From: Fidelibacterota bacterium
GTDB taxonomy: Bacteria > Fidelibacterota > UBA8477
Direction of reading: 5' to 3'
Assembly (NCBI GenBank): GCA_021734045.1
Contig: JAIPJR010000033.1
Span: forward strand, 1 to 30,060
DNA: 30,060 nt
Under the pieces are notes generated by a model. That model saw only the letters and a list, made by a program, of their open reading frames with translations, searched no databases and had not been told where the DNA came from. How positions within the stretch are numbered: position 1 is the first letter of the stretch; the number at the start of each line of letters is the position of its first letter. Both the position numbers and the translations under genes were made by a program. Positions 26,058 through 30,060 of the stretch are shown piece by piece.

Positions 26058-26163
26058 CTCCTCTTTTTAAGGGGAGAAAAAGAGGGGCGTCGATTTCAGA
26101 GAAAGAAGGCAGTTGAAAGAGAAAAGGCAGTTAACCACCGAGACCACAGAGCGCGAAATAAAT
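26058..26163. repeat. Partial copy of the 257-bp repeat (head only)
   Basis: Begins with the CTCCTC...GGGGAGAAAAAGAGGGG head and continues through TTTCAGAGAAAGAAGGCAGTTGA before diverging; about 106 bases before the next unit. Confidence 0.7.
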
Positions 26164-26420
26164 CTCCCCTTGAGGGGAGAAAAAGAGGGGTGTTGTTTCA
26201 GAGAAAGAAGGCAGTTGACAGAGGAAGAGAAAGAGCGGACCACGGATTTCACAGATTCAACAGATTCACACGGATTGAGGATTCTATTGCCACAGAAAAA
26301 CGCAGACAAAATCCCCTCCAACGGAGGGGTGGCTGCAGGCCGGGGTGGGTTTATTCGCGTATGATTTAGTTAGCCGCAGATGACGCAAATTACGCGGATA
26401 AAGCCCAAATACTGATTATT
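26164..26420. repeat. Tandem repeat unit, copy 1 (257 bp)
   Basis: Near-identical to the next unit with a handful of single-base differences. Order within the unit: CTCCCCTT/AAGGGGAG hairpin head, GAAAGAAGGCAGTTGACAG, CCACGGATT-CACAGATT-CACACGGATT, CCCCTCC-AAC-GGAGGGG hairpin, GC hairpin, GGGGTGGGTTTA, then TTAGCCGCAGATGACGC. Confidence 0.9.
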
Positions 26421-26680
26421 CTCCCCTTTTTAAGGGGAGAAAAAGAGGGGTGTTGTTTCAGAGAAAGAAGGCAGTTGACAGAGGAAGAGAAAGAGCGGAC
26501 CACGGATTCCACAGATTCAACAGATTCACACGGATTGAGGATTTTATTGCCACAAAAAAACGCAGACAAAATCCCCTCCAACGGAGGGGTGGCCGCAGGC
26601 CGGGGTGGGTTTATTCGCATTTGATTTAGTTAGCCGCAGATGACGCAAATTACGCGGATAAAGCCCAAATACTGATTATT
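26421..26680. repeat. Tandem repeat unit, copy 2 (260 bp)
   Basis: Second full copy, directly adjoining the first. The last about 45 bases, ending AAGCCCAAATACTGATTATT, are the same in both copies. Confidence 0.9.
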
Positions 26681-26740
26681 CTCCCCTTTTTTAAGGGGAG
26701 AATAATAGGGATGTTGATTTAAGAGAAAGAGAAAGAAATC
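26681..26740. repeat. Partial third copy of the repeat unit (head only)
   Basis: Starts with the CTCCCCTTTTTTAAGGGGAG hairpin and then degrades (AATAATAGGGATGTTG). Confidence 0.65.
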
Positions 26741-26763
26741 CCGGCGGGACGTCAGTTGCGTAG

Positions 26764-27104: not shown

Positions 27105-28109
27105 ATGGGAACGGAAACACCACATCAGACCCGCTTCATATCCCGGAGCAATACGCCCAAATTGATGGACCAGGTCAAATCGGCCCTACGAAGTCGGCAT
27201 TACAGCCGAAGGACGGAACAAGCTTACCGGAACTGGATTAAGCGCTTTATCTATTTTCATCATATTCGCCATCCGAAAGATATGGGTGAGCTTGAAATTA
27301 ACGCCTTTCTTTCTCACCTCGCATTGAAAGAAAAAGTCAGCTCATCCACTCAAAACCAGGCTTTGGCTGCCCTCCTCTTTCTTTACCGGTATGTCATCAA
27401 TCGTGATGTTGGTGATTTAGGGAATGTTGCCAGGGCTCGTAAACCCAGGCATTTACCCGTTGTAATGACCCGTGAAGAAGCAAAATCCGTCTTGAATAAC
27501 CTCACGGGTGATAAATGGCTGATGGCAACGATCATGTATGGTGGTGGATTACGCTTGATGGAATGTCTGCGGCTGCGGGTACAGGATATTGATTTTTCGA
27601 AAAATGAAATTCTTATTCGAGATGGCAAAGGCGGAAAAGACCGGCGAACTATGTTACCCGTCGTCGTAAAACAGCCACTGCAGGAGCACCTCACCCACGT
27701 TAAGGCGATTCATGCAAAAGATCTGGCGGCTGGATGGGGTCATGTAGAATTACCAGATGCCCTGGATCGTAAATATCCCAACGCACCCAAAGAATGGCGT
27801 TGGCAGTGGGTTTTTCCACAGGATAATCGCTGGCGAGATGATAAAACCGGAAAGGAGGGGCGGCATCATGTGCATGAGACCATTATTCAAAGAGCTGTAG
27901 CCCGCGCCGTACAAAAAGCCCAACTAACGAAAAGGGCGACCTGTCATACTTTCCGTCATTCGTTTGCGACACATTTGCTGGAAGACGGCTACGATATCCG
28001 GACAATACAGGAATTATTGGGTCACAAAGATGTGAAAACCACCATGATATACACCCATGTGTTGAATCGGGGTGGTGCGGGTGTAAAAAGTCCTTTGGAT
28101 ACATTATGA
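27105..28109 (+). CDS. intI: Integron integrase (IntI family tyrosine recombinase)
   Basis: 334 residues from the ATG at 27105, which gives the N-terminal length of IntI1 (337 residues); the frame is open to a TTG at 26919, but the extra residues are translated palindromes. Core-binding domain: [20 protein letters not shown]. Catalytic residues: Arg150, Lys175, His281, Arg284, His307 and nucleophile Tyr316, each exactly four positions after the IntI1 residues. The IntI-specific insertion is present as [14 protein letters not shown] then [10 protein letters not shown], which separates IntI from XerC/D and phage integrases. The end [12 protein letters not shown] is also IntI-like. It should insert and excise gene cassettes at attI/attC sites. 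Repeats and a cassette-like gene lie downstream of it rather than upstream. The ribosome site is weak. The frame is intact. Confidence 0.97.
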
Positions 28110-28422
28110 TGGATTTTTATACAGAAAGTGTATAAGATACCGGCACCAAAGAAAATATTGATGTATCTATATATAATTACAGGTGTTGTGACGATTTTTT
28201 AGAAGGGGTGTTATACAGCGGTTTTTAAGGTTTAGGATGTTATGAAGAAACTATATAAACAATGTTCATCCCGACCTGCGGTCGGGATGAACGGTCTGGC
28301 CTTTGAGCCGAAGTCTGATTCGCCCGCAGGCGGACGAACCAGCCTTTGGAACAGATGCCCCTACGGGGCACGGCTCAAAGGCCAGACCGTTATGTTACAA
28401 CAAAAATTATAAAGGTTATCAT
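28110..28422 (+). promoter_or_regulatory. Candidate attI and cassette-promoter region between intI and first cassette gene
   Basis: 313 bases without a gene. AT-rich up to 28263, with TATAAT at 28172-28177 as a possible -10 and core-like boxes GTTATAC (28210-28216) and GTTATGA (28239-28245), either of which could be the attI crossover. The second half is the first 131-bp element. Which box is attI cannot be decided from sequence alone. Confidence 0.4.
28264..28394 (+). repeat. 131-bp structured element, copy 1 (candidate attC)
   Basis: Identical over all 131 bases to 29712-29842. It opens with a hairpin GTTCATCCCGACC-TGC-GGTCGGGATGAAC (13-bp stem). Its last AAC begins the left arm of a perfect 21-bp inverted repeat (28290-28310 with 28371-28391). 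Inside are two smaller hairpins, around CCGCAGGCGG and TGCCCC-TAC-GGGGCA. It ends CCGTTATG, followed by T, which fits an attC R' box (GTTATGT). Unlike classic attC sites, the long stem has no bulged bases. Confidence 0.75.
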
Positions 28423-29496
28423 ATGATTGATAAAATACAATTACTATCAACTACTTCATCAATAGAGGGCTGGTCAATCGAAAAATATTATGGTATTGTA
28501 ACATACCAATTAGTCATTGGTGCTAATTTGTTTAGAGATGTCTTTTCTTCTTTTAGAGATATTTTTGGTGGTTCTGTAAAAGGATATCAAAAAGATTTAC
28601 AAAATATGGAGAATATTGCAATTTCAAATCTTAAGAAAAATGCCACAAAATTAGGCGCGAATTTAATTTTGGGATTACGATTAGATTTTGATGAAGTTTC
28701 TGGCGGTAATAAATCTATGTTTATGTTATCCGTTTCTGGCACAGCAGCTTTAGGATTTCCCAACACTAAACAAAAAGTCAAAACTGAATCTGAGTTCATA
28801 AGTTTAGATGAGCTAGATTATGAAATCGAAAAAGATAATTTGAATAAATTAATTCATACAGATAATTATTTGATAGAATCACCGGAGCAGATTGAAGAAT
28901 TATTAAAATATAAAATTAGTGCGGTCGAGCAAGTCGTAGAATACATTGAAAACTACTACCCATATTTTGATGATAATAAAGAATTGATATTCGATTATTT
29001 CCAAAATATTTCTATTGAGTCAATAAATAATTATTTAATTAGTGATTCTATATTGACCATAAGTAAAAAAACATTTTATAAGCTAATTGATATCTTAGAA
29101 GCGATTAATTGGTTTGATTATGAGGTAATATTTAAGTTATTGAAAAATGATGATGTTAAGGCTCATATTCGGGCATTATATTTAATGGATCTTGAAAAAG
29201 AATATTATTCTCAAGAAGATATTCTAAAATTGGAACAACTTAAAAATCTTGTTGAAAGTGTATATTCAAAATATCCTCAAATACAAACATCGAAAAAAGC
29301 ATTTGGTAAAGAAAAACAAGAATGGACTTGCTTAAATTGTGGTACAAAAAATCCCGTAGAATCAACTTCTTGTTCTAAATATGAATGCCAAGCAAATGTA
29401 TATGGTATAAAAAATGACCAAATAAATCCTGAGATGCTTAAATCAATATTTTCAGATAGAATAAATAAGTTAAAACAATTACTAAATGTAACATAA
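28423..29496 (+). CDS. Cassette-borne YbjQ-domain protein with C-terminal zinc ribbon
   Basis: 357 residues from the ATG at 28423, with AAAGG seven bases upstream; the frame open back to 28303 would translate the 131-bp element. Residues about 7-110 are a YbjQ/UPF0145 (PF01906) domain: TTSSIEGWSIEKYYGIVTYQ, then GANLFRDVF and RDIFGG, with GANLILGLRLDFDE and MFMLSVSGTAA closing it. Residues 125-290 are a charged, mostly helical region without a recognised family. Residues 301-324 carry Cys303, Cys306, Cys317 and Cys322, a zinc ribbon of RanBP2-like spacing. YbjQ proteins form pentamers; their function is unknown. The gene is strongly AT-rich (about 30% GC in a sampled line), and its TAA overlaps the ACATAAC box, as in integron cassettes. 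Confidence 0.88.
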   Translation: MIDKIQLLSTTSSIEGWSIEKYYGIVTYQLVIGANLFRDVFSSFRDIFGGSVKGYQKDLQNMENIAISNLKKNATKLGANLILGLRLDFDEVSGGNKSMFMLSVSGTAALGFPNTKQKVKTESEFISLDELDYEIEKDNLNKLIHTDNYLIESPEQIEELLKYKISAVEQVVEYIENYYPYFDDNKELIFDYFQNISIESINNYLISDSILTISKKTFYKLIDILEAINWFDYEVIFKLLKNDDVKAHIRALYLMDLEKEYYSQEDILKLEQLKNLVESVYSKYPQIQTSKKAFGKEKQEWTCLNCGTKNPVESTSCSKYECQANVYGIKNDQINPEMLKSIFSDRINKLKQLLNVT

Positions 29497-29564
29497 CAAG
29501 CGCATCAACCCGACCGCTTCATTCTGCTTGGGCTTTGAAAATGTTCTTGGGTTGATCGTTCTAA
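29491..29564 (+). repeat. attC-like site of the YbjQ cassette (decayed R' side)
   Basis: ACATAAC (29491-29497) is the reverse complement of GTTATGT at the cassette start (28389-28395), as R'' and R' of one circular cassette should be. It is followed by AAGCGC and ATCAACCC, which pairs with GGGTTGAT at 29549-29556. The presumed R' box reads GTTCTAA (29558-29564), keeping only the GTT core. An alternative R' is GTTATGC at 29697-29703. Confidence 0.45.
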
Positions 29565-29581
29565 AAAATATTGTAGTGCAA

Positions 29582-29673
29582 GGTTGTCATTCTAACATAA
29601 ATCGTAGCAAAAAATGCTTGCGAGGGAAATTAAGCATTTTTTGCCTTTAATTAATCGGGTTGTCATTCTAGCA
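29582..29673. repeat. Direct repeats flanking a hairpin
   Basis: GGTTGTCATTCTAACA (29582-29597) recurs as GGTTGTCATTCTAGCA (29658-29673). Between them lies a perfect 13-bp hairpin GCAAAAAATGCTT (29607-29619) / AAGCATTTTTTGC (29632-29644) with a 12-base loop, which could end transcription of the cassette gene. Confidence 0.7.
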
Positions 29674-29711
29674 AACATTGTCTCTATGGGCGGCGGGTTA
29701 TGCGCAACGCC

Positions 29712-29842
29712 GTTCATCCCGACCTGCGGTCGGGATGAACGGTCTGGCCTTTGAGCCGAAGTCTGATTCGCCCGCAGGCGGACGAACCAGCCTTTGGAAC
29801 AGATGCCCCTACGGGGCACGGCTCAAAGGCCAGACCGTTATG
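29712..29842 (+). repeat. 131-bp structured element, copy 2 (candidate attC)
   Basis: Identical to copy 1. Its 3' end reads GTTATG followed by C (GTTATGC). It is preceded, 9 bases after its last base, by another GTTATGC box (29697-29703), so the element itself could be a roughly 140-bp cassette without a gene. Confidence 0.75.
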
Positions 29843-29853
29843 CTTAATAAAAT

Positions 29854-30060
29854 ATGAAGCTAAATTTACATAGAGATAGTGAATTCGATATTTTAACTTC
29901 TATAGGTGAGTTGCATATTGATTGGTTATTCCGGAAGTATCGGACACCTGTTCCGGTTTTTGTCGGACACCCTGATTGCCCCTGTTCAGGTCGAGCAATT
30001 TTAAGGCGAGGTGTCCGAGAGACCTACCCTGTTTTTGAGCTTTCTCATACTATCTCCTTC
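29854..30060 (+). CDS. Start of a second cassette ORF, possibly interrupted (partial)
   Basis: An ATG 12 bases after the second 131-bp element opens a frame that stays open to the window end (69 codons). The first about 26 codons (MKLNLHRDSEFDILTSIGEL, then HIDWLF) are AT-rich and protein-like. After about 29935 the composition changes and the frame runs through TCGGACACC repeats, so the gene is probably broken by an insertion. No clear Shine-Dalgarno; no family recognised. Confidence 0.35.
   Translation, partial: MKLNLHRDSEFDILTSIGELHIDWLFRKYRTPVPVFVGHPDCPCSGRAILRRGVRETYPVFELSHTISF
29940..30060. mobile_element. Possible insertion-sequence end at the window edge
   Basis: TCGGACACC occurs at 29940-29948 and 29963-29971 and inverted as GGTGTCCGA at 30010-30018, an arrangement typical of transposase-binding repeats at IS ends. 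On the minus strand AAGGAG lies five bases before an ATG at 30048 that opens a 15-codon frame ending at 30001. No transposase is visible inside the window. Confidence 0.3.

Follow-up and report, generated by a model that had tools for sequence, protein, structure and literature searches.

The stretch analysed here (the window) is the entire 30,060-bp contig JAIPJR010000033.1 of a Fidelibacterota bacterium (assembly GCA_021734045.1; 119 contigs, 2.54 Mb), from the phylum Candidatus Neomarinimicrobiota in the Fibrobacteres–Chlorobi–Bacteroidetes (FCB) group. It ends in the integrase-proximal part of a chromosomal integron in reverse orientation, a layout already known to which this integron adds a member, and two identical repeats lie beyond the integron integrase gene (intI). 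These repeats are probably two copies of a 125-bp gene-less cassette moved by the integrase between attI and attC sites. The unit has exact boundaries, occurs at several positions, keeps a fixed orientation after an attC or attI site, and is a member of a family of folded integron elements found in at least three bacterial phyla, in which the fold is conserved. We infer that the integrase is the mover, that the fold acts as a lock and that the unit has a selfish role. We consider this explanation as a whole, including the predicted locked fold and the minimal selfish passenger, to be likely.

Two gene-less cassettes next to attI

Reading from attI, the array consists of gene-less copy 1, a cassette with a YbjQ-domain gene, gene-less copy 2 and the start of a further cassette (Table 1); the contig ends inside this array, before a long run of cassettes, as in large sedentary chromosomal integrons, could show. 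The initial annotation had noted two identical structured elements 3' of intI, and these are indeed present as a shared stretch of 131 bp (28264-28394 and 29712-29842). Identity between the copies begins exactly at a GTT and stops just past the next GTTATG, and the flanks differ. Each copy is thus a 125-bp unit between two crossovers, too short for a gene and with an attC of its own. In both cassette kinds, the R'' box complements the start of its own cassette at 7 of 7 bases (GTTCATC/GATGAAC in the gene-less cassette, GTTATGT/ACATAAC in the YbjQ cassette). In the YbjQ cassette the match is exact over ten bases, with GTAACATAAC at 29488-29497 being the exact reverse complement of GTTATGTTAC at 28389, which bears out the R''-like box that had been noticed at the end of the first cassette gene. 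The 3' limit of the YbjQ cassette is set by the exact start of copy 2, and its gene matches the YbjQ domain family (PF01906, E 1.2e-25). We had also considered the repeats as the attC of the YbjQ cassette, and this was ruled out by the rule linking R'' to the cassette start and by the arrangement in a related genome described below. Thus, the two identical structured elements stand as annotated, but they are separate gene-less cassettes and not attC sites of the YbjQ cassette.

The integrase belongs to a widespread reverse clade

The integrase was expected to be an intact IntI with its signature insertion, and its match to the integron integrase profile agrees (TIGR02249, 480.6 bits against a cut-off of 265). 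The closest solved structure is IntI4 (2a3v, E 1.6e-89), whose match covers residues 23-333 and includes the integron-specific region. No other integrase in the host assembly exceeds the family cut-off. The intI gene is adjoined by attI, followed by attC-ended cassettes whose R'' boxes complement their own starts, and is transcribed towards these cassettes.

Among the 80 relatives collected, most of the closest have a conserved attI motif ~147-195 nt past the intI stop. Relatives with attI 3' of intI come from Aminicenantes, Desulfobacterota, Planctomycetes, Spirochaetes, Actinomycetes and others; cyanobacterial and Chloroflexi relatives are mostly without a good attI match at this position. 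In a tree of 98 integrases, to which the IntI of Treponema denticola did not contribute, the window IntI falls into a clade with support 100/99. The reverse layout was found in 28 of the 32 rows of this clade, the remaining 4 being unscorable or weakly scored. Layout, attI position and clade together uphold the annotated reverse chromosomal integron in an FCB genome. The accompanying view that such integrases are known from a few lineages needs amending, as the clade spans about ten phyla. Reverse-type integrases at 60-77% identity to the window IntI have this same span, a spread that suggests wide transfer of the platform itself. In another genome of the host phylum (G063), six full or partial integron integrase matches lie on different contigs.

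Different positions of the unit within the genus

A second genome of the same genus (G001) carries an orthologous integron, whose intI has decayed to ~30 N-terminal codons and a short end remnant. There, a unit 98% identical to that of the window lies between two cassettes absent from the window (L131:2669-2793). Between the two genomes the unit differs at 3 of 128 positions, and the adjacent start of intI at 18 of 150. The G001 unit is preceded by a cassette whose R'' box TTAAATAGCTAAC matches that cassette's own start. Within this genus, two genomes together show the exact G^TT ends three times, each time beside different neighbours. A lack of further attC-like sites, together with a gene order and repeats fixed in relatives, would have spoken against an integron; instead, G001 has other cassettes and the repeat elsewhere. 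At the attI of G001 the sequence joins as TATACAGACC^GTTATG, which we read as a probable deletion running from attI to the 3' end of a copy since lost. Neither the integrase nor the unit was found in the other genome of this genus (G002).

Other parts of the G001 locus are also of interest. Alongside the reduced intI, attI is truncated (L131:569-739): the platform is decaying while the array persists. Further down the array lies a decayed relative of the 3' end of the unit (GGAGCACGACTCAAAGCCCAACCGTTGAA, L131:4800-4880), and beyond the cassettes are a toxin gene of the MazF/PemK type, preceded by a small gene (PF02452, L131:4380-4718), and a HigBA-type pair (PF05015 and HTH_3, L131:6163-6734).

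A family with a conserved fold in several phyla

When a covariance model was built from the copies in the window and in G001, the only further locus that it matched in 861 kb of relatives was in a Syntrophaceae genome (E 2.5e-8). This unit of 128 bp lies at attI and was matched end to end, with 18 of its 53 pairs changed on both sides; a second copy on the same scaffold is broken by an assembly gap. A widened model matched 14 of 395 Desulfobacterota genomes, and a third matched 3 of 396 genomes from the phylum of the Aminicenantes relative. Within the host phylum, matches were confined to G000 and G001, apart from a single weak hit. Units of the family are 117-142 bp long. Among the matches listed, there are at least eight copies in genome G298 and at least seven in G381, and those examined sit in cassette arrays.

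The fold, more than the sequence, is what these copies share. Across an alignment of 25 distinct copies, pairing holds in 93.9% of pair cells, and compensatory changes occur at 48 of the 53 pairs. None of 500 shuffles reached a value as high, and slid controls were far lower. No relevant match to the unit was found in Rfam. A scan of the compared loci for the two-hairpin layout returned only the window, G001, locus L023 and three AT-rich or short look-alikes. We found no DNA-level relatives among plasmids, phages and viral contigs, the viral search being for one exact 22-base pattern. In one array of G381, two element types stand in tandem pairs, twice over (L195, G381:C2, 4446-7629, minus strand).

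An attC that may be masked by its own leader

In most copies the last ~60 bp resemble a conventional attC: the spacers are unpaired and the L'' arm carries isolated extrahelical bases (for example, AGTT[C]GAG[A]CAG with CTGCTCAACT). In 21 of 30 copies, 7-8 of the 8 bases of the inner R'' agree with the cassette start. The inner attC of the window copy is weaker, with one clear extrahelical base. We had described the unit as a perfect stem without extrahelical bases, a description revised once the inner attC was recognised.

Upstream, most copies carry a leader arm that complements the L'-R' side perfectly or almost perfectly. The outer, locked fold to which this arm gives rise was more stable than the inner attC in each of the 20 copies computed, by 8-24 kcal/mol. 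This most stable fold has neither extrahelical bases nor an unpaired spacer, so that in its preferred state the unit does not resemble a canonical attC. In the VCR (Vibrio cholerae repeat) site, removal of the extrahelical bases together with pairing of the spacer reduced bottom-strand integration 8.5e4-fold (PMC2727003); by analogy, the outer fold should be nearly inert. The copies also show a strand bias, with 49 G-T against 16 A-C pairs and a more stable bottom strand in 21 of 25 copies, which fits selection on the bottom strand used by IntI.

In the explanation that we propose, the 3' half of the unit is an attC of ~60 bp whose spacer is unpaired and which has extrahelical bases, as is usual. 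The 5' half, made of hairpin I, the leader arm and hairpin IIa, duplicates the R'' box and can pair perfectly with the 3' arm of this attC. Pairing of the leader gives a much stabler fold without extrahelical bases, which would mask the attC and render the integrated site nearly inert. On a bottom strand that has just become single stranded, the inner attC could still form, because its arms precede the leader in the 5'-to-3' direction of that strand. As such, the unit would ride in integrons as a minimal selfish passenger and keep its own excision in check. Extended to all carriers, this would mean minimal integron parasites across phyla, each with an attC whose competing arm leaves it recombinogenic only for as long as its bottom strand has just turned single stranded, and locks it afterwards; the recombination site would then be regulated by its own DNA folding. 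We rate this broader reading at slightly below even.

Copies follow attC or attI in one orientation

A recognisable attC directly precedes 16 of 35 copies, as compared with 2.1% of control positions (p 3.5e-18), and this count is a lower bound since the simple attC arm score misses long attCs (the G001 neighbour scores 5.2). For L145 and L154, which are among these 16, an attI-like reading fits just as well. An attC on the opposite side of the unit, corresponding to reverse orientation, was seen in 0 of 35 copies. By eye, many of the remaining copies follow an attI-like sequence or another copy. The unit is followed immediately by the start of the next cassette, which in some cases has a matching attC of its own. 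In G298, one copy occupies an attI-like site on the 5' side of an integrase; the unit family is therefore not tied to reverse integrons. Integron integrases are enriched in the Desulfobacterota carriers (10 of 14, against 142 of 395 overall; p 0.0066).

Several points weigh against a cassette moved by the integrase and locked by its fold. Four of the 14 Desulfobacterota carriers have no integrase match at the threshold used, and four copies (L151, L158, L159 and L161) have no recognisable attC or attI on their left. The first of these lies within a palindrome (CCCCCTTCCCATATT / AATATGGGGAGGGGG; L151:1501-1630) that is no attC, and is possibly a secondary-site insertion. The copies are related to one another, which makes the strand and neighbour counts not fully independent. 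Because the alignment was fitted to the model, its pair counts are biased in favour of the fold; more weight should go to the slid and shuffled controls than to the raw percentage. Template-switch repair, too, can preserve the perfect pairing of near-perfect inverted repeats, and the fold energies disregard proteins and kinetics.

Alternative explanations

A gene-less cassette moved by IntI could instead be regulatory, with its hairpins or a promoter controlling the transcription of neighbouring cassettes. Promoter-bearing gene-less cassettes in Vibrio and Treponema act in this manner, copies are located at attI in the window and in L023, and the minus strand of copy 1 has a T-rich stretch after hairpin I. 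However, a simple promoter scan gave no promoter-like site within the unit, although such promoters are hard to predict in silico (PMC11014356). The copies moreover occupy many array positions, and what is conserved is a fold with compensatory changes, not a sequence; a regulatory role is thus unlikely. The mover might also be a different enzyme that targets attC and attI, the unit then being a non-autonomous element akin to a miniature inverted-repeat transposable element, comparable to IS1111-attC. This would suit a unit that is multi-copy and near-identical within genomes, with one copy in the palindrome at L151, and other attC-targeting elements are known (PMC11187229). Yet the ends of the unit coincide with the IntI crossover at attI and at very different attC sites that share little but GTT, its orientation is fixed and it obeys the cassette R'' rule. 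With no target duplication at the junctions read and no transposase gene in the unit, we consider such an element quite improbable.

Since attC sites are alike within some genomes (PMC1382264) and the unit does hold an attC, the repeats might be the attC sites of ordinary gene cassettes of the host, made alike by within-genome homogenisation. This is already contradicted by the two-crossover anatomy and has very little probability: the YbjQ cassette has its own attC that satisfies the R'' rule, copy 1 abuts attI directly with no gene between, and in G001 the unit stands behind a cassette that its own R'' box already fits.

Relation to known systems

Reverse integrons, also called unusual, have been described in Treponema denticola, Acinetobacter baumannii, Blastopirellula marina and Chlorobium phaeobacteroides (PMC6557892, PMC3607928). 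The window integron resembles them in that intI is transcribed towards attI and the cassettes, with 63% identity to a Spirochaetaceae member of the clade. It differs in its host, Candidatus Neomarinimicrobiota, and in the many phyla of its clade. Both reverse integrons and gene-less cassettes are already established (PMC3607928, PMC6557892, PMC8876359, PMC11014356). Boucher and colleagues (2006) described multi-copy non-coding vibrio cassettes with no homologs outside vibrios, and raised the idea of selfishness (PMC1382264). What seems to be new here is the structured, cross-phylum family of gene-less cassettes, and not the reverse layout; in the open-licence literature we found no description of such a family, only papers on gene-less cassettes.

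Like the gene-less cassettes of Vibrio and Treponema (PMC1382264, PMC11014356, PMC6557892), the unit has no gene, a 3' attC and several copies per array. The Vibrio families are recognised by nucleotide identity, whereas the present unit crosses phyla, conserves fold instead of sequence, measures only 117-142 bp and adds a leader able to mask the attC. The inner site shares with a canonical attC such as VCR the R''/L''/L'/R' boxes, unpaired spacers and extrahelical bases (PMC2727003). In contrast to a canonical attC, it has an upstream competing arm that produces a mostly perfect stem of 13-18 bp lacking such features. Insertion at attC is shared with IS1111-attC insertion sequences (PMC11187229) and group IIC-attC introns (PMC8876359). 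Unlike either, the unit has no gene, also uses attI and follows the cassette R'' rule. These other elements are much larger and come with an enzyme or intron structure of their own.

Resistance genes and others spread through integrons, in which the control of cassette excision is an open question. A natural family with a seemingly self-masking attC would be direct test material for folding-controlled recombination and, if our reading is true, would extend minimal integron parasites across phyla, beyond vibrios. Arrays may also be hidden from view where such units interrupt metagenome assembly at integrons, as the contig end in the window and the gap within the second Syntrophaceae copy illustrate.

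Features of the integron end

Table 1. Coordinates of the integron features in the window
Feature	Position	Strand	Basis
intI, integron integrase of the reverse clade, 334 amino acids	27105..28109	+	profile, structure match, tree
attI core, GTTATGAAGAAACTATATAAACAAT^GTT, crossover at 28264	28240..28266	+	motif conserved 3' of intI in relatives
Gene-less cassette copy 1, 125 bp	28264..28388	+	G^TT boundaries, R'' rule, fold
Hairpin I of copy 1; its end GATGAAC complements the cassette start	28264..28292	+	
Leader arm of copy 1; 18/18 complementary to attC 3' arm 28371-28388	28293..28310	+	
Hairpin IIa of copy 1, holding inner R'' box GGACGAAC (28332-28339)	28311..28347	+	
Inner conventional attC of copy 1, R'' to R' GTTATGT, ~64 bp	28332..28395	+	
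YbjQ cassette	28389..29711	+	R'' rule 7/7; boundaries from repeat comparison and sequence
YbjQ cassette gene, 357 amino acids, N-terminal YbjQ domain, weak C-terminal zinc-ribbon match	28423..29496	+	
YbjQ cassette attC, ~230 bp: R'' ACATAAC, L'' GCGCATCAACCC, L' GGGTTATGCGC with one base bulged, R' GTTCATC	29491..29718	+	sequence; arm score 8.0
Gene-less cassette copy 2, identical to copy 1	29712..29836	+	
Start of further cassette, cut at contig end; probable transposon end from ~29940	29837..30060	+	

The last cassette had been annotated as the start of a second gene. A further cassette does begin there, but the contig ends at 30060 and the sequence looks transposon-like from ~29940, so the supposed gene is only a 69-codon open frame. 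Near the contig end, three TCGGACACC repeats occur within 29940-30018 (0.14 expected), which suggests a transposon end in this cassette; the stretch had no match among plasmids. Upstream of intI, the region 26060-26760 contains long diverged direct repeats (CTCCCC..TTAAGGGGAG and neighbours), together with a sub-threshold match to the whalefall-1 RNA (E 0.016).
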